A DNA stretch of 64,000 bases from Clostridia bacterium (GTDB lineage: Bacteria > Bacillota > Clostridia > Christensenellales > Borkfalkiaceae). Within the stretch, counting starts at the first letter, position 1. Each line of letters starts with the position of its first letter. Positions 7,288 through 62,068 of the stretch are shown here, one piece after another. Under the pieces are notes generated by a model that was not told the DNA's origin, searched no databases, and was given only the letters and a program-made list of their open reading frames with translations. A program made the position numbers and the translations under genes. The stretch covers positions 1 through 64,000 of the forward strand of contig JAGASM010000036.1 of the NCBI GenBank assembly GCA_017621735.1, given 5' to 3'.

Positions 7288-7326
7288 GAACAAGATGAGG
7301 AAAAAATTGAAAGGGGATGAAACTTT

Positions 7327-8469
7327 ATGGCATTAAAAATCAAAAGAGAAAACCTCGGCGTCGTATTTACACCGCGCGACGAGGAGGTGTACGACCACAC
7401 GACGGGCGTATTATACCCGCGCGTGTTAGAACTGCGTCATGCGGGGGAAAAGAACGGATTGCTCCTTGCAACGTTTGAGCATGCAACGTTGAAAGAACCG
7501 CCCGTTGCGCCCATTTTGTGCAGTCGCGATCAAGGGGTTACGTGGGAAGCGTATTCGCAAATGGAAGACACGCACAACGGTTACGGAATCCGCTTTCAGC
7601 CGACGTTGTTTGAACTTCCGTGCGCTTGCGGGGATTTACCCGAAGGGACGCTTGTTTTCGTCGGGAATTCCGTTCCGCTCGATTTTACGTCGACGCAACT
7701 CGTCTTTTACGTGAGTTTCGATTGCGGATTAACGTGGGAATACCGTTCTACGTTTGCCGTCGGCGGCCCTCCGATCGAACAAAATTTCGACGCGCTCGGT
7801 CCCGTATGGGAGCCGTTCGTCTACATCAACGCTTACGGCGACCTTACCGTCGCGTTCACCGACGAGCGCCCGCATACCGATCCTCGGTTTAACCAAACGC
7901 TTGCGCTCGTCCTTTCCAAAGACGGCGGAAAAACGTGGAGCGAACCGCAATATACCGTTACCGTTCCCGATCGCGGACTTCGTCCCGGAATGCCGATCGT
8001 CGCAAGAATGGGAAACGGAAAATATATCATGGTGTACGAAATCGTGGGCTATCCTTCGTGCGATATTTACTTTAAGTTGTCCGACGACGGAGTAAATTGG
8101 GGGGATCCGCTTTCCCAAGGGAAACGGGTGGAAACGCCGGACGGACTTTATCTCGGCTCTATGCCCTACGTCATTTGGGTTCCGCACGGCGGAAAGAACG
8201 GAACGGTCATCGTTACGGCAAAACGGGAAGGCGAGCATTACGGCATGCGCGATCCCGGATATTATCACGTCAATTACGATAACGGCGAGGGGGAATGGTA
8301 CCGCGTTCCTATGCTGATTACCTATCGCACCGAGCAGTTGCAAGCGGGGTGGAGTATGGGCATGACGCAGGTGGGGGAAAACGTTCTTTTACAACTTGCG
8401 CCTACGCCGATGAATAAAAAAAGAATGCAAATTACATACGGAATCGGCATTCTCGAAACGGAAGAATAA
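7327..8469 (+). CDS. Sialidase-like beta-propeller protein (BNR/Asp-box)
   Basis: 380 residues with four Asp boxes: SRDQGVTW (66-73), SFDCGLTW (130-137), SKDGGKTW (197-204) and SDDGVNW (252-258), the hallmark of six-bladed sialidase-type propellers. Such enzymes cleave terminal sugars, classically sialic acid. An N-terminal Arg is present (FTPRDEE, residue 17), but I cannot confirm the full Arg triad or the Tyr/Glu pair. No signal peptide, so the substrate would be imported oligosaccharides or another intracellular glycan. Single gene with its own promoter, followed by a fourfold terminator repeat. It could act on another sugar or only bind. Confidence 0.75.
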   Translation: MALKIKRENLGVVFTPRDEEVYDHTTGVLYPRVLELRHAGEKNGLLLATFEHATLKEPPVAPILCSRDQGVTWEAYSQMEDTHNGYGIRFQPTLFELPCACGDLPEGTLVFVGNSVPLDFTSTQLVFYVSFDCGLTWEYRSTFAVGGPPIEQNFDALGPVWEPFVYINAYGDLTVAFTDERPHTDPRFNQTLALVLSKDGGKTWSEPQYTVTVPDRGLRPGMPIVARMGNGKYIMVYEIVGYPSCDIYFKLSDDGVNWGDPLSQGKRVETPDGLYLGSMPYVIWVPHGGKNGTVIVTAKREGEHYGMRDPGYYHVNYDNGEGEWYRVPMLITYRTEQLQAGWSMGMTQVGENVLLQLAPTPMNKKRMQITYGIGILETEE

Positions 8470-8473
8470 AGAA

Positions 8474-8810
8474 AAGCCCGATACAAGTCGGGCTTTTTGC
8501 TTGTTTTTCTGCCGATGAGGTTTGAATACTTTCTGTCGCGCATTGCAAAAAACTTTTGAAACGGAAGCACAAGTCAAAGCCCGATACAAGTCGGGCTTTT
8601 TGCTTGTTTTTCCGCGGTTGAGGCTTGAATACTTTCTGTCGCGCATTGCAAAAAAACTTTTGAAGCGGAAGCGCAAGTCAAAGCCCGATACAAGTCGGGC
8701 TTTTTGCTTGTTTTTCCGCCGTTGAGGCTTGAATGCTTTCTGTCGCGCATTGCAAAAAACTTTTGAAGCGGAAGCGCAAGTCAAAGCCCGATACAAGTCG
8801 GGCTTTTTTT
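8474..8810 (+). repeat. Fourfold terminator in 103-104 bp tandem repeats
   Basis: The hairpin AAGCCCG-ATACAAGT-CGGGCTTTTT occurs at 8474, 8577, 8681 and 8784. The spacer units share TTTCTGTCGCGCATTGCAAA and GAAGCGGAAGCGCAAGTC. GAAACGGAAG before the second hairpin matches the last codons of the sialidase-like gene, so the unit seems to include the gene tail. Each hairpin is an intrinsic terminator. This fills most of the gap to sigK. Confidence 0.9.
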
Positions 8811-8896
8811 AATGGAGATGGAGTGGATTATTTTTAGATCGGCGTAATAGGACAAAATAGACGCAACGTATAATAACCTTACAAAAAGGAGGCGAT

Positions 8897-9592
8897 ATGT
8901 TCGATTTATTTTACGCCGTATTATGCAAATTGTTTTTCTTTACGGGAATGGTGCGCGATTCCTATCCCAAACCGCTTTCCCCCGACGAGGAGGAACGCTA
9001 TCTTATCGCGGCGAAAGGGGGAGATAAACGCGCAAAAGATCTGTTGATCAAGCACAATATGAGGCTTGTGGCGCATATTGTCAAAAAGTATTCGGGGGCG
9101 GCGGATACGGACGACATGATCTCCGTGGGGAGCATCGGGCTTATTAAGGCAATCAACACGTTTGAAGTGGGGCGCGGGGCACGCCTTGCAACCTACACGG
9201 CACGGTGTATCGAAAATGAAATTTTAATGCTCATTCGCGCGGGGAAAAAACATCGCAACACCGTGTCTTTATCCGATCCCGTCGGGACGGACAAAGAGGG
9301 GAACGAACTGACCTTGATGGATTTACTCGCGGAAAAAGAGGACGTCGTTTTTGGAAGCGTGGAACAAAAAATCGTGCAAGAAAAGTTTGTACGGCAAATT
9401 CGGGGGATATTGAACGAGCGGGAAACGGAAATTATATGTTTGCGCTATGCGCTTTTCGGTGGGGCTCCGCTTGCTCAACGCGAGGTTGCGCAAAAGTTAA
9501 AGATATCCCGTTCTTACGTCAGCCGAATCGAAAAAAAGGCGATTGAAAAACTGCGCAAGGGACTTCGACGAGAAGACTTCCTTGCCGAGTAA
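8897..9592 (+). CDS. sigK: RNA polymerase sigma factor SigK (late mother-cell sporulation sigma)
   Basis: 231 residues. After a hydrophobic pro-sequence-like N-terminus (FDLFYAVLCKLFFFTGM) comes KPLSPDEEERYL, then the region 2 block LIKHNMRLVAHIVKKYS with DDMISVGSIGLIKAINTF, and a region 4 helix-turn-helix ISRSYVSRIEKKAIEKL. This is the SigK pattern; SigE has a different region 2 and a longer pro-segment. The N-terminus suggests pro-SigK processing. The gene is not interrupted by a skin element. AAAGGAGG lies upstream of ATG 8897. Supports a spore-forming host. Confidence 0.9.
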   Translation: MFDLFYAVLCKLFFFTGMVRDSYPKPLSPDEEERYLIAAKGGDKRAKDLLIKHNMRLVAHIVKKYSGAADTDDMISVGSIGLIKAINTFEVGRGARLATYTARCIENEILMLIRAGKKHRNTVSLSDPVGTDKEGNELTLMDLLAEKEDVVFGSVEQKIVQEKFVRQIRGILNERETEIICLRYALFGGAPLAQREVAQKLKISRSYVSRIEKKAIEKLRKGLRREDFLAE

Positions 9593-9671
9593 ATGCAAAA
9601 AAATCGGTGCGTCGTTTTATAGTAAACGCAGTTTGCGCGTGTCGGCGGTTGGGGAAGGGGAAATTAGTGCG

Positions 9672-9870
9672 GCAGTTTCCGTTGGTTTTTGTAAATCGTC
9701 CAGTTGGAACGGTAAGCGGGGGAAGAAAAAGGCGGGAGCGAGCAGTTTCCGTTGATTTTTACGGTAAGCGGGGAAGAAAAAAGACGAGAGAGGACAGTTT
9801 CCGTTGATTTTTGTGAATTGTCGAGTTAGAACGGCAAGCGGGGAGAAAAAGGCGGGAGCGCGGAGGCTTC
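9672..9870. repeat. Degenerate tandem repeat of about 50-70 bp, three copies
   Basis: Units starting GCAGTTTCCGTTGRTTTTT at about 9672, 9742 and 9793, each followed by GGTAAGCGGGG-AAGAAAAA-GGCGGGAGCG or variants. Copy two has lost the middle part. Lies between sigK and the methyltransferase gene; the rest of 9593-9954 shows no gene. Confidence 0.75.
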
Positions 9871-9954
9871 CGTGAACGGCGAAAGAGAAATGAGAGGGAC
9901 GGGAGAAAAATTAGTTCGCGCGCGAAGAAATTATCGGCGCGTCGCTTTTTTTAC

Positions 9955-9983
9955 TTTACAAAGCGAAGGAAAAAGTTTATAAT
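9955..9983 (+). promoter_or_regulatory. Promoter predicting a leaderless mRNA
   Basis: TTTACA (9955-9960), 17 bp, TATAAT (9978-9983). Only six bases separate the -10 box from ATG 9990, so transcription should begin at or next to the A of ATG. No Shine-Dalgarno sequence is present. Confidence 0.7.
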
Positions 9984-9989
9984 TTATCT

Positions 9990-10850
9990 ATGATTCATCT
10001 TGCCGACGCATGGCGCGATTACGAAGTCATTGCAACGGGCGACGGTTACAAGTTGGAACGGTGGAAGGACGTTTATTTGCTTCGCCCCGATCCGCAGGTA
10101 ATTTGGAAATCGCAGTTCGACTTATTCTCTTATCCAAAACTCAACGCGGTATATCACCGCAGCGAAAAAGGGGGCGGGGGATGGGAGTACCGCAAAAAAA
10201 TGCCCGACGAATGGAACGTAAGTTACCGCGACCTCAATTTCAAAGTAAAACCGATGGGGTTTAAGCATACGGGGCTTTTCCCCGAACAGGCCGTTAATTG
10301 GGACAAAATGGCTTCCCTTATTCAATCGGCGGGAAGACCGATTAAAGTACTCAATCTCTTTGCCTATACGGGCGGGGCGACGGTTGCTTGTGCCAAAGCG
10401 GGCGCAGAAGTAACGCACGTGGACGCGGCAAAAGGAATGGTAGAACGCGCGGGCGAAAATGCGCGCCTTTCGGGCATTTTTAGCGGGATTCGCTATATCG
10501 TGGACGACTGTAAAAAATTTGTTCAAAGGGAAATTCGCCGCGGAAATAAGTACGACGCCGTCATTATGGATCCGCCCTCTTACGGACGGGGGCCGAACGG
10601 CGAAATGTGGAAGATCGAGAGCGAACTTTATCCTTTCGTCCAACTTTGTACGGAAGTGCTCAGCGATAATCCGTTATTCTTTTTGATCAACAGTTACACG
10701 ACGGGGCTGCAACCGGCGGTGTTGAGTAACATTCTTTCCCTTTGCCTCAAAGGACGGAAGGGGAAGATCGAGGCGTACGAAGTGGGGCTTCCCACGGGGG
10801 AAGGGATTTGTCTTCCCTGTGGCGCGGGAGGAATGTTTATCCATGAATGA
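9990..10850 (+). CDS. Class I SAM-dependent rRNA methyltransferase (RlmI-like)
   Basis: 286 residues. SAM-binding motif I NLFAYTGGATVACA near residue 115, the acidic strand end VDAAKGMVE, and the catalytic-type DPPSYGRG near residue 192 are those of the RlmI/YtxD-type enzymes acting on 23S rRNA cytosine. The PUA domain of classical RlmI is absent; the N-terminal 85 residues differ. It overlaps the following pseudouridine synthase by 8 nt, so the pair looks like an RNA-modification operon. The exact target base is not shown by the sequence. Confidence 0.8.
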   Translation: MIHLADAWRDYEVIATGDGYKLERWKDVYLLRPDPQVIWKSQFDLFSYPKLNAVYHRSEKGGGGWEYRKKMPDEWNVSYRDLNFKVKPMGFKHTGLFPEQAVNWDKMASLIQSAGRPIKVLNLFAYTGGATVACAKAGAEVTHVDAAKGMVERAGENARLSGIFSGIRYIVDDCKKFVQREIRRGNKYDAVIMDPPSYGRGPNGEMWKIESELYPFVQLCTEVLSDNPLFFLINSYTTGLQPAVLSNILSLCLKGRKGKIEAYEVGLPTGEGICLPCGAGGMFIHE

Positions 10851-24025: not shown

Positions 24026-24110
24026 AAGTACGAAAGGGAAAAATCGCTTTTGTTGGAAAAAATCATAAATTCTATCTGGAAGTCCGACGCGTTTCAAGTG
24101 CGGGATTGCT

Positions 24111-24324
24111 CGGCTTTTCCGTTGCGTGCGCGAACAAAAACTTGCGTGCGCTTCCGCAAAAAAGCCCCGCACTGCGTTTGCAGTGCGGGGCGCTATCATT
24201 AGATGATTTTGTTCGGCTTTTCCGTTGCGTGCGCGAACAAAAACTTGCGTGCGCTTCCGCAAAAAAAAACCCGCACTGCGCTTGCAGTGCGGGGGCGCTA
24301 TCATTAGATGATTTTGTTCGGCTT
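24111..24324. repeat. Tandem duplication of hydA tail plus terminator, 103-105 bp units
   Basis: Units at 24111-24213 and 24214-24318, nearly identical. Each holds TTCCGTTGCGTGCGCGAACA, a GC-rich terminator hairpin (24165-24190; 24270-24293) and, in minus-strand reading, the last hydA codons for NKII and its stop. The 24197-24213 copy of these codons is detached from the gene. Confidence 0.9.
24261..24293 (-). terminator. Terminator of the hydCBA operon
   Basis: CCCGCACTGC / GCAGTGCGGG with a T run on the minus strand, 10 bp past the hydA stop. A second copy stands at 24159-24190. Confidence 0.85.
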
Positions 24325-26028
24325 ATACGTCGTATGTAAAATTTCGTGTGCCTTATGGCTATTAGGGAAGCCGAGGTAATCGTTGTAAAGGAGGTCCATT
24401 GCGGGGGAATCCGCCGAGCGGCGAATTTCATTTCCGCAGTCTGCCGTATACAACGCTTTTGCACGCGCTTCTTTGAGTTCAACGGAGTTGCGCACAGCGT
24501 CCGAACGGGTGGGTTGACCGCCGCCGTTTACACAACCGCCGGGACAAGACATGATTTCTACGAAGTCGTACTTTTTCTCGCCCGATTTGATACTTTCGAC
24601 AATCTTGCGCGCATTGTCCAAACCGGATGCAACCGCAACGCGAATGGTGTGCCCTGCGACGAGGTAGGTTGCTTCCTTGATGGGATTGCTTCCGCGGACT
24701 GCAAAGAAGTCCAAAACTTCAAAACTGCCGTCCATCATATGAGCCGCCGTACGGAGCGCCGCTTCCATAACGCCGCCCGTTGCGCCGAAGATCGCGCCTG
24801 CGCCCGTTGCGATTGCAAACGGGTTATCGAATTCTTCGTCTTCAAGTTCTGCAAACTTAATGCCTGCCGTTTTGATCATGCGGGCAAGTTCGCGCGTCGT
24901 GATTGCCGCATCGACGTCGCCTTTCATCTCTTCGCGGCCGCATTCGTATTTCTTCGCCGTGCAAGGAATGACACTGACGACGTACAAGTTTTTAGGATCT
25001 ACCCCGTTCTTTTCGCACCAGTACGTCTTGAGAAGCGCCCCGAACATTTGTTGAGGGGATTTGCAGGTGGAGAGGTTCGGGATCATTTCCGGATACGTTT
25101 GCTCAACGAATTTAACCCAAGCGGGGCAGCAACTCGTGAACATCGGCATAGGCTTGTTCGTTTTAATGCGGTTGATAAGTTCGCTTGCCTCTTCCATAAT
25201 GGTAAGGTCGGCGGTAACGTCCATATTAAATACTGCGTGAGGATTTAATCTGCGGATCGCCGCAACCATCTTGCCTTCGACGTTGGTGCCAACGGGCATT
25301 CTAAACGCTTCGCCGAGCGTTGCGCGGACGGAGGGAGCGGTAAAGAATATAACTTTCTTCGTGCTGTCGGAAAGCGCCTCCCATACTTCGTCGATGTTGC
25401 TCTTTTCAGAAAGCGCACCGACGGGGCAGTCGACGATACATTGACCGCATCCGACGCAAGGGGATTCGGAAAGGGGACGGTCGAACGCGCTGCCGATGTG
25501 GACGTTGAATCCTCTTCCGATGGGACCGATTGCGTTGACGTGTTGCTTTTTGCACGCCGCGACGCAACGCATACAGTTGATGCACTTGTCGTTGTCGCGA
25601 ATGATGTAGGGGGTGGATTCGTCGGGGGGAAGGTTAAAGTCTTCTCCCTTAAATCTGTCTTCGTCTACGTCGTAGCCAAGGGAAAGGCGTTGCAATTCGC
25701 AACTGCGGTTTCTCTCGCAAGAAAGACACTTTTTCTTGTGCTTACTCAAAATGAGTTCGAGCGTCATTTTACGCGACTGACGGCACTTGTCCGTGTTCGT
25801 GCGTACTTCCATGCCTTCCGCTACGGGATAAACGCAAGCGGCAACGAGTCCGCGCGCGCCCGTCGCTTCGACGACGCACATACGGCAGGAGCCGACACGG
25901 CTTACGTCTTTCAAAAAGCAAAGGGTGGGGATTTCAATATGAGCCTGTCTTGCCGCTTGCAAGATGGTCGTTCCTTCCGGAACGGTTACGGGAATGCCGT
26001 TAATTTTCAGGTTAACCATTTTATTCAT
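24304..26028 (-). CDS. hydA: [FeFe] hydrogenase catalytic subunit HydA (bifurcating type)
   Basis: 574 residues. N-terminal 2Fe-2S domain (Cys37, 48, 51, 65), His-Cys cluster region (CLSC, about 101-110), two 4Fe-4S motifs (Cys149-159; Cys191-201), then the H-cluster: TSCCPAW (298-304), IPCTAKKYE (354-362) and MSCPGGCVNGGGQP in the last quarter. In the second motif the usual Met before PC is Ile. Together with HydB and HydC it forms the electron-bifurcating complex that makes H2 from NADH and reduced ferredoxin. Starts 8 bp after hydB; GAGGTGA before ATG 26028. Confidence 0.95.
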   Translation of the reverse strand: MNKMVNLKINGIPVTVPEGTTILQAARQAHIEIPTLCFLKDVSRVGSCRMCVVEATGARGLVAACVYPVAEGMEVRTNTDKCRQSRKMTLELILSKHKKKCLSCERNRSCELQRLSLGYDVDEDRFKGEDFNLPPDESTPYIIRDNDKCINCMRCVAACKKQHVNAIGPIGRGFNVHIGSAFDRPLSESPCVGCGQCIVDCPVGALSEKSNIDEVWEALSDSTKKVIFFTAPSVRATLGEAFRMPVGTNVEGKMVAAIRRLNPHAVFNMDVTADLTIMEEASELINRIKTNKPMPMFTSCCPAWVKFVEQTYPEMIPNLSTCKSPQQMFGALLKTYWCEKNGVDPKNLYVVSVIPCTAKKYECGREEMKGDVDAAITTRELARMIKTAGIKFAELEDEEFDNPFAIATGAGAIFGATGGVMEAALRTAAHMMDGSFEVLDFFAVRGSNPIKEATYLVAGHTIRVAVASGLDNARKIVESIKSGEKKYDFVEIMSCPGGCVNGGGQPTRSDAVRNSVELKEARAKALYTADCGNEIRRSADSPAMDLLYNDYLGFPNSHKAHEILHTTYKPNKII

Positions 26029-35940: not shown

Positions 35941-35978
35941 AAGACGAACGAAAAAATTTTCGTTCGTCTTTTTTTTTG
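35941..35978 (+). terminator. Terminator of the XRE operon
   Basis: AAGACGAACGAAAA / TTTTCGTTCGTCTT perfect 14-bp arms with a run of nine Ts. Confidence 0.92.
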
Positions 35979-36084
35979 TAGCCTTTAGCGGAAAAGAACT
36001 ACCACTTGAAGCGGTGGTATAAAAAATCTATCGCAAAAAAAGTGGATTTTCCGACCGCAAATAAAAAACACAGGAGGATTCGTC

Positions 36085-36135
36085 ATGACGGTAGCCTTTA
36101 GCGGAAAAGAACTACCACTTGAAGCGGTGGTATAA
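36085..36135 (+). CDS. Repeat-borne 16-residue mini-ORF, copy 2
   Basis: MTVAFSGKELPLEAVV, then TAA. GGAGG at 36073-36077 stands 7 nt before the ATG, an ideal ribosome binding site. Whether it is translated is unknown; it may equally be a structural part of the repeat. Confidence 0.3.
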   Translation: MTVAFSGKELPLEAVV

Positions 36136-36210
36136 AAAATCTATCGCACCCCCTGTGTTATAAAAAAGTGGGGTTTCCGACCACAAATAAAAAACACAGG
36201 AGGATTCGTC

Positions 36211-36261
36211 ATGACGGTAGTCTTTAGCGGAAAAGAACCACCACTTGAAGCGGTGGTATAA
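36211..36261 (+). CDS. Repeat-borne 16-residue mini-ORF, copy 3
   Basis: MTVVFSGKEPPLEAVV, then TAA, with the same GGAGG 7 nt upstream. Two codon changes against copy 2 keep the frame and length. Confidence 0.3.
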   Translation: MTVVFSGKEPPLEAVV

Positions 36262-36364
36262 AAAATCTATCGCAAAGCCCCCTGTGATATAAAAAGGCGG
36301 GGTTTCCGACCACAAATAAAAAACACAGGAGGATTTTTCAGTATGCGCTTTTTGGATACTTGTC

Positions 36365-53137: not shown

Positions 53138-54163
53138 ATGAACGAAGAAAAACTCAAAGCATTAGACGCGGTGCTTGCACAAATTGAAAAGGCGTACGGG
53201 AAGGGTGCGATTATGAAATTAGGCGCAGAAGCGGGAAATACGGACATCGAAACGATTCCCACGGGCTGCCTTGCACTCGATTTGGCGCTCGGAATCGGCG
53301 GACTTCCCCGCGGAAGAATGATTGAAATCTACGGACCGGAATCTTCCGGTAAAACGACGGTCGCCCTTCATGCCGTTGCACAAGCGCAAGCGCTCGGCGG
53401 AATTGCGGCGTTTGTCGATGCGGAACACGCGCTCGACCCCGTCTATGCAAAAAAACTCGGCGTTAAGTTGGACGAACTCTACGTTTCCCAACCGGATACG
53501 GGCGAACAGGCGCTCGATATCGTCGATTCGCTCGTGCGTTCTTCCGCAGTGGATATTATTGTCGTCGACTCGGTTGCGGCGCTTACGCCGAAGGCGGAAA
53601 TCGAAGGGGATATGGGAGATAGCCACGTCGGATTGCAAGCGCGCCTCATGAGCCAAGCGCTCCGGAAACTGACGGCAATCGTCAACAAGAGCAAGACGTG
53701 CGTCGTCTTTATCAACCAACTGCGCGAAAAGGTTGGGGTAATGTTTGGAAATCCCGAAGTTACTCCCGGCGGTAAGGCGCTTAAGTTCTACGCGTCCGTT
53801 CGGATCGACGTAAGAAAAATTGATACGTTGAAAGATTCCGAAGGCGCTGCGGGGAACCGTACGCGCGCAAAAATCGTCAAAAACAAACTCGCGCCTCCCT
53901 TCCGTCAGGCGGAATTTGACATCATGTACGGCGAAGGCGTTTCGCAAGAGGGTTGTATCATCGACCTCGGCGTACAGTACGACGTCATCAAAAAGAGCGG
54001 AGCATGGTACAGTTATAACGACAATAAGGTGGCGAACGGCCGCGAAAAAATGCGTCAATTCTTGCGCGATAATCCCGAACTCGCTTCGGAAATGGAAGAA
54101 AAGATCCGCGCTGCGGCAAAGGGACTTTCCGCCGAAGACGTCGCGGGCGCAGAAGAAGCGTAA
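53138..54163 (+). CDS. recA: Recombinase RecA
   Basis: 341 residues. Walker [10 protein letters not shown] (66-74), Walker [11 protein letters not shown], loop L1 region [21 protein letters not shown]2 with [22 protein letters not shown], and KAxFR end. Homologous recombination and SOS. SOS box not recognised upstream, since it lies in the cinA operon. Its last codons are repeated downstream (see repeat). Confidence 0.98.
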
Positions 54164-54349
54164 CAAACCGCTTGTCGCTTGACGAAACGCCTTGCACGGG
54201 GTTTCTTTATTCTCCGTCCGCACGCAAAGAAGTGGCGGGCGCAGAAGAAGCGTAACAAACCGCTTGTCGCTTGACGAAACGCCTTGCACGGGGTTTCTTT
54301 ATTCTCCGTCCGCACGCAAAGAAGTGGCGGGCGCAGAAGAAGCGTAAAA
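54143..54349 (+). repeat. Tandem duplication of the recA tail plus terminator, 92-bp units
   Basis: The last recA codons for AGAEEA and the stop occur at 54143, again at 54235 and 54327, exactly 92 bp apart. Between them lies a shared spacer with CTTGTCGCTTGACGAAACGC and a weak terminator GAAACGCC / GGGGTTTC. The two full units are almost identical, so the duplication is recent. Confidence 0.95.
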
Positions 54350-56364: not shown

Positions 56365-56850
56365 TGGGGGTAAGGTTGTTTATCGTGCGCTGTTCGTTAG
56401 GTTTTTTGCTTATGCCGTTTGCATATCTTTGCGGGGTTGGGTTGTTTTCCGTGCGCTGTTCGGTAGGTTTTTTGCTTATGCCGTTCGCATATCTTTTCGG
56501 GGGGATGGGTTGTGTTTCCCGTGCGGCGTTTGGTAGGTTTTTGCTTGTCGCCGTTTGCATATCTTTTCGGGGGTAGGGTTGCTTGCCGTGCGGCGTTCGG
56601 TGGGTTTTTGCTTGTCGCCGCTTGTGTATCTTTGTGGGGTTGGGTTGTTTCCCGTGCGGCGTTCGGTAGGTTTTTGCTTATACCGCTTGCATATCTTTGT
56701 GGGGCAGGATTGTTTATCGTGCGCCGTTCGGTGGTTTTTTTGCTTATACCGTTTGCGTATCTTTGTGGGGGTAGGGTTGTTTCCCGTGCGGCGTTCGGTA
56801 GGTTTTTGCTTGTCGCTGCTTGTGTATCTTTGTGGGGTAGAGGTAGGACT
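56365..56850. repeat. 60-63 bp tandem repeat, about eight copies
   Basis: GGTTGTTTCCCGTGCGGCGTT-CGGTAGGTTTTTGCTT-ATACCGTTTGCATATCTTTG is repeated about eight times with drift. The period is close to a multiple of three, so long spurious frames exist on both strands; none has a ribosome binding site. Fills the nadE-rny gap. Confidence 0.9.
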
Positions 56851-61519: not shown

Positions 61520-61860
61520 GCGCGCGGGGTGCATGCCGTAGAGTGATGGCGGGAGCATGGCTTTCGGTGCGGGCTTTTTACGGGGCGCTTTGAAAAGGAG
61601 TGTTGTCTTTGTTTTGCGTTTTCGGCATGACTTTCGGTCGCGTTCGGGTTTCCGTTTTGAAATTACGCGGCGCGGGACAGATTGGGCAAATCCTGCATGC
61701 CGTAGTGTGATGGCGGAACGGTTGTTCGTGGTGGGCTTTGTGCGGGGAGCTTTGAAAAGGAACGTTGTCTTTGTTTTGCGTTTTCGGCATGATTTTCGGT
61801 CGCGTTCGGTTTCCGTTTTGAAATTACGCGGCGCGGGACGGATCGGGCAACCGCGCGCGC
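61520..61860. repeat. Two copies of a 175-185 bp repeat
   Basis: GCATGCCGTAGAGTGATGGC (61530) and GCATGCCGTAGTGTGATGGC (61697) head two similar units containing TTGTCTTTGTTTTGCGTTTT, TTTCGGTCGCGTTCGG and AAATTACGCGGCGCGGGAC. No gene. Confidence 0.85.
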
Positions 61861-62068
61861 GGTTTTCTGTTTAGAACGGTAGAGCGGAGCGTGCGGTTTT
61901 TTGTTTAGAACGGTAGAGCGCAGCGTGCGGTTTTCTGTTTAGAACGGTAGAACGCAGCGCGCGGTTTTTTATTTAGAACGGTAGAGCGTAGTGTGCGGTT
62001 TTCTGTTTAGAACGGTAGAGCGGAGCGTGCGGTTTTTTGTTTAGAACGGTAGAGCGCAGCGTGCGGCA
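61857..62068. repeat. 35-37 bp tandem repeat, six copies
   Basis: GTGCGGTTTTCTGTTTAGAA-CGGTAGAGCGCA recurs six times with few changes, right up to the nrdR promoter. The shortest unit of all arrays in the window. Confidence 0.9.

Follow-up and report, generated by a model that had tools for sequence, protein, structure and literature searches.

The four hairpins that follow the BNR-repeat (sialidase-like) gene are part of a tandem array that probably arose by local duplication at the 3′ end of that gene, as a minisatellite of a lineage with an unusual tendency to form or retain such arrays. Its class is assigned from repeat structure in one genome of the species, and on that footing the array itself counts as an ordinary minisatellite; what matters more is the excess of such arrays in the genome.

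The array lies within the 64-kb stretch of DNA that was analysed (the window), between the BNR gene and a SigK-like gene (Table 1). The product of the upstream gene scored 30.5 bits against Pfam BNR (cut-off 27), stayed below the cut-off for BNR_2 (25.9 against 31.4 bits) and had no match in NCBIfam; the nearest relative found shares 79% protein identity. The downstream gene matched NCBIfam PRK05803 with 289.3 bits (cut-off 252) and reached 285 bits against TIGR02846, below the cut-off of 298.65. TRF described the intervening DNA as 3.3 head-to-tail copies of period 103 (95% matches, score 614), which is within the ~10–200 bp unit range of minisatellites and VNTR loci, and the repeats are 93–97% alike. 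The same 24-base hairpin opens every unit and leads into a T-rich run. The fourth unit is partial and stops directly behind its hairpin, with unrelated DNA beyond, suggesting either that the ancestor already had two hairpins or that a spacer was lost. When the 1.78-Mb genome was searched with the 103-bp unit, strong matches were confined to this locus and the next-best match covered 34 bp at 82%. No Rfam family matched at gathering score anywhere in the window.

Table 1. Coordinates of the BNR locus and of two further arrays in the window.
Feature	Position	Strand	Basis or remark
BNR/Asp-box (sialidase-like) protein gene, 380 aa	7327..8469	+	upstream of array
Gene tail GAA ACG GAA GAA TAA, first 10 bases recurring 103 bp downstream	8455..8469	+	read from sequence
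Tandem array, 3.3 x 103-bp unit (hairpin + spacer + degenerate gene-tail copy)	8473..8808	+	TRF
Predicted terminator hairpin 1	8471..8498	+	terminator scan, folding
Predicted terminator hairpin 2	8576..8599	+	terminator scan, folding
Predicted terminator hairpin 3	8680..8703	+	terminator scan, folding
Predicted terminator hairpin 4, in partial last unit	8783..8806	+	sequence reading, terminator scan, folding
SigK-like sporulation sigma factor gene	8897..9592	+	downstream of array, same strand as BNR gene
Array after [FeFe]-hydrogenase gene (24304-26028, -), 2.1 x 103 bp	24106..24324	-	TRF; begins inside gene tail; contains terminator-like site
Array after recA (53138-54163, +), 2.3 x 92 bp	54135..54347	+	TRF; begins inside gene tail

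The first-pass annotation had described four identical terminator hairpins 103–104 bp apart after the sialidase-like gene, and sequence, TRF and a terminator scan agree on this arrangement. The hairpin AAAGCCCGATACAAGTCGGGCTTT starts at 8473, 8576, 8680 and 8783 (spacing 103, 104 and 103) and is identical in all four places. Folded alone, the hairpins gave −15.1 to −21.5 kcal/mol with z-scores of −4.4 to −7.3. Scanning positions 7300–10000 returned 11 terminator-like sites against 4.5 (sd 2.1) in shuffles, with all four hairpins listed on the + strand. At each of the four sites a G+C-rich stem-loop is followed by a T run, the arrangement of an intrinsic terminator as predicted from sequence.

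The unit was also said to repeat the last codons of the gene, and it does so in register: GAAACGGAAG, at the end of the BNR gene (8455–8464), is found again at a lag of 103. The match is exact in the first repeat only, the following two having GAAGCGGAAG. Of 238,694 positions tested in the genome sample, 25 (about 1e-4 per position) had 10 or more consecutive matches to the 32-bp tail. Because the last codons recur exactly 103 bp on, we conclude that the gene tail was copied. The C-termini of 14 of the 18 relatives read have IET or LET plus a few residues, and since ET is kept at the same place, the ET codons are native to the gene and were copied from there. The stretch from tail to hairpin differs at several positions between the gene copy and the repeats. 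As the gene copy has diverged from the repeats while these are nearly alike, the first duplication of the tail would predate the expansion, and the earlier description of the gene-tail duplication as an older one is plausible from the sequence.

We propose that the gene tail, the terminator and ~60 bp of downstream DNA were duplicated head to tail in an early event, and that the copies may afterwards have grown to three full units and one partial unit by slippage or by unequal recombination with one another. The terminators would have been carried along with the duplicated unit. Such duplications would be common in the lineage, with units mostly of 50–135 bp, and would persist in non-coding DNA, often right behind stop codons.

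Two further arrays in the window also begin inside a gene tail. The near-equal period claimed for the array behind the [FeFe]-hydrogenase gene was recovered by TRF, and the array behind recA has a somewhat shorter unit (Table 1). Among 24 readable congener rows inspected by eye (L028, L033, L035, L040 and L047 being left out), the gene after recA lies within ~55 bp of the recA stop or overlaps it in 13, which makes it probable that the array behind recA is an addition of this lineage. In a separate reading of loci, the minus-strand ones L011–L015 were likewise left out. Longer or denser arrays occur in the window at 56365–56838, 61530–61850 and 61855–62066, with periods of 66/198, 162 and 34 bp, respectively.

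For a census of arrays we combined the window with 40 stretches of the same genome, in all 717 kb or ~40% of the 1.78-Mb, 43-contig assembly; the stretches were chosen from contigs whose length was known or presumed to be large and are not a random draw, and L166, which is all N, was set aside. TRF was run up to period 500, 25 bp was the shortest period accepted, the best of overlapping rows was retained, and an array was called non-coding when less than half of it was coding according to a simple gene caller. The sample held 59 arrays, 52 of them non-coding although 85% of the sampled DNA codes, and arrays made up 11% of its non-coding DNA. Periods of 50–135 bp accounted for 45 of the 52. Leaving out the window, 36 non-coding arrays of this size remained in 653 kb. 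They are unevenly spread: 42 non-coding arrays of all sizes fell in the first 464 kb sampled and 10 in the second 253 kb, and contigs carried from none to many.

In contrast, one 10–20 kb stretch from each of 40 congeneric species (787 kb in total) contained 33 arrays, 17 of them non-coding and only two of these with periods of 50–135 bp. The comparison of 45 with 2 gives p=1e-12 for a size range set after seeing this genome; from 25 bp upwards the non-coding counts are 52 and 17. Per base, the excess is thus ~25-fold for non-coding arrays of 50–135 bp and ~3-fold from 25 bp up. Nine stretches sampled at the level of the order (180 kb) held 11 arrays, six of them non-coding and two of those in the size range, and a single 50-kb stretch of E. 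coli K-12 held no arrays. Loci retrieved by searches for BNR, recA, sigK and families (388 kb, with some overlap) lie outside the census and held 16 arrays, four with periods of 50–135 bp, in which coding was not classed. A literature search on tandem repeats in Borkfalkiaceae found no paper, from which we do not claim absence from print.

The period of the BNR array had been taken as a hint of a size rule, with a preferred length near 92–105 bp across the genome. Tested on the 40% sample, the rule holds in a broad form: the 52 non-coding arrays have a median period of 93.5 bp with quartiles of 73 and 109, forming a class around 95 bp with no sharp length. The narrow band itself contained 12 of the 45 arrays against 7.3 expected under a uniform distribution over 50–135 bp (p=0.052); of the 10 arrays in the second sample one fell in it, and such a band is not established. 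Only 3 of the 52 had periods below 50 bp, a scarcity that does not stem from detection since arrays were kept from 25 bp and TRF covered periods up to 500. Phasing of the periods by helical turn was rejected (Rayleigh p=0.68 at 10.5 bp).

Non-coding arrays crossed the 3′ end of a gene in 15 cases and the 5′ end in 2, compared with 219 and 302 of 2000 unit-length control windows (Fisher p=2e-4). These 15 do not include the BNR array, as TRF places its start 4 bp past the stop. This bias rests mainly on the first sample, in which it was noticed (14 against 1); the second, with 1 against 1 among 10 arrays, is too small to confirm or deny it. Together with the in-register match and the ET codons of the relatives, the crossings support the gene-tail duplication proposed earlier. 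An array behind a stop codon would be tolerated because the upstream copy leaves the gene whole and promoters and start sites are untouched. Where the arrays lie can therefore be accounted for by selection against alterations of genes and start regions, but their excess over congeners cannot.

Two features of composition were recorded. In the 46 arrays with enough flank, the G+C content of non-coding array DNA was 0.487 against 0.421 in flanking non-coding DNA (p=3e-5). Plain duplication does not predict G+C-rich array DNA, and this counts against it; the difference could stem from gene conversion between copies or from another origin. The motifs CGCACGC and GCACGCA, the best of 5650 k-mers, occurred in 9 and 7 of the 52 arrays where 0.9 and 0.4 were expected, a several-fold enrichment in array units over both non-coding and coding DNA. 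Their positions within units varied, and the shared motif was rejected as a border mark.

Several losses of repair functions were considered as causes of the excess and rejected. Duplications accompany flap-nuclease deficiency in yeast (rad27), with loss of the 5′–3′ flap nuclease domain; this domain (PF02739) was present in 38 of 41 genomes, scoring 192.6 bits in the genome studied here. MutS1 was matched in all 41 genomes (40 above cut-off), arguing against loss of mismatch repair, and RecJ in 40 (39 above cut-off, this genome included). Ku, a LigD 3′-phosphoesterase-ligase and a LigD-type polymerase are encoded by three adjacent, separate genes in this genome (stretch L100, 10477–13507). 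A broken LigD was rejected, as the frames read as two intact genes for ligase and polymerase. In eight of the nine congeners with a polymerase match the LigD-type polymerase lies in an open frame of more than 800 aa, which suggests a fusion.

A wider proposal, which we put forward tentatively, is that a mutational process specific to this lineage, and absent or weak in its congeners, generates tandem duplications of ~50–135 bp (median ~95) throughout the chromosome. These would accumulate behind stop codons and repeatedly copy gene tails and terminators. Their size would be fixed by some length-setting step, for example fill-in of a ~100-nt gap or stagger and its joining, with Ku, LigD and the separate LigD-type polymerase as the enzymes.

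As a rival reading, duplication by end joining in this lineage is unlikely. Nicks staggered by ~100 nt would be filled in and joined by Ku and LigD to leave a direct repeat of the length of the stagger, and the three genes lying side by side and the scarcity of short periods fit this account. Mouse cells need Ku80 for small tandem duplications at staggered breaks (PMC8355091). The ends of the arrays agree with it in part: among 15 analysable two-copy arrays, seven had overhangs such as blunt duplications give in simulation (−13 to +5) and two were shorter, but six carried 10–39 extra bases, and fewer than 1% of the simulated duplications gave 6 or more extra bases. Uniform short flanking repeats were likewise rejected, with at least 10 extra bases in only these 6 of 15. 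Ku was found in 11 of the 41 genomes including this one, yet the stretches (187 kb) sampled from the other ten Ku-bearing species, all among the 40 congeners, held no non-coding array of 50–135 bp, so that Ku is not a sufficient cause. Outside the sampled stretches, three Ku-bearing congeners have arrays of 45, 49 and 167 bp, with coding unclassed.

Selection for the four terminators as such, with repeated stops shielding the sigK-like gene from transcription of the BNR gene, is in our judgement quite unlikely. In its favour, the hairpins are intact and without a difference among the four whereas the spacers vary, and the gene that follows on this strand encodes a sigma factor of the sporulation type. 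Behind the same BNR gene, a relative recorded as Candidatus Borkfalkia faecavium carries an array of 3.0 copies of a 50-bp unit (L093, 4200–4351), with hairpins seen by eye. However, few changes would be expected anyway in 26 bp of such similar copies. Moreover, a terminator-like site was found in the units of only 6 of the 52 non-coding arrays, compared with 17% of 400 control windows, in a scan strict enough to pass over the recA unit with its weaker hairpin; the other 46 had none. With no enrichment over controls, termination is not the feature common to the arrays, the terminator at the BNR locus looks like a passenger, and terminator-driven duplication was rejected as a general cause. The label of a fourfold terminator is accordingly right about the hairpins and overstates termination. 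We conjecture that, as a likely side effect, the sigK-like gene would be better shielded from transcription coming from upstream.

That a mobile element or dispersed repeat (MIRU, BIME/REP or MITE-like) was inserted behind the BNR gene is very improbable. One dispersed family of ~126 bp, in tandem at some of its places, does occur in the window (35978–36335), with further members at L104 7515–7775, L115 3775–4091, L168 5514–5646 and 8221–8346, and L153 3333–3408, and insertions behind recA vary among congeners as judged by eye. The 103-bp unit, in contrast, is strong at its own locus only, and 49 of the 59 array units had no other match in the sampled 40% of the genome (E 1e-3). Finally, it is barely credible that overlapping contig ends or unmerged strain variants were joined into arrays during assembly: the assembly is in 43 contigs and units are about as long as common k-mers and reads, but such an artefact would affect genes, whereas 52 of the 59 arrays are non-coding in DNA that is 85% coding; most arrays have copies several percent apart, and 15 of the 59 have at least three copies.

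Local duplication at the gene tail, in a lineage that makes or keeps such arrays, is thus the reading we prefer. The excess, in which many arrays copy gene tails, offers a natural case for asking what creates and keeps ~100-bp duplications in bacteria, and it raises the question of how repeated stop signals arise without selection for them.

Among known systems, tandem intrinsic terminators consist of several hairpin and T-run signals in a row behind one gene, as is seen after the BNR gene. Here, in contrast, each signal is an exact copy within the 103-bp repeat unit, and terminator-like sites are missing from most sister arrays. MIRU constitute one sequence family at many loci. The 103-bp unit, strong at one locus, does not behave in this way, and most array units here match no other place in the sample. 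In size the units are comparable: MIRU units measure 40–100 bp and are scattered over 41 locations in Mycobacterium tuberculosis H37Rv (PMC2734929).

Ku-dependent small tandem duplications have been described at engineered staggered breaks in mammalian cells (PMC8355091). They resemble the arrays in being direct repeats of unique local sequence of tens of bases; here, the agreement extends only to the genes present and to some of the array ends, and the stretches sampled from Ku-bearing congeners are without such arrays. The closest likeness in structure is to bacterial minisatellites and VNTR loci, which share head-to-tail, near-identical, intergenic units of tens to ~100 bp. In the rnc-fpg1 region of M. 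tuberculosis, a repeat array fills a place at which the genes of related species are only a few bp apart (PMC2734929), and the recA array resembles it in placing repeats where relatives have a short gap. The arrays here differ from these loci in that the unit includes a gene tail, and may include a terminator too.
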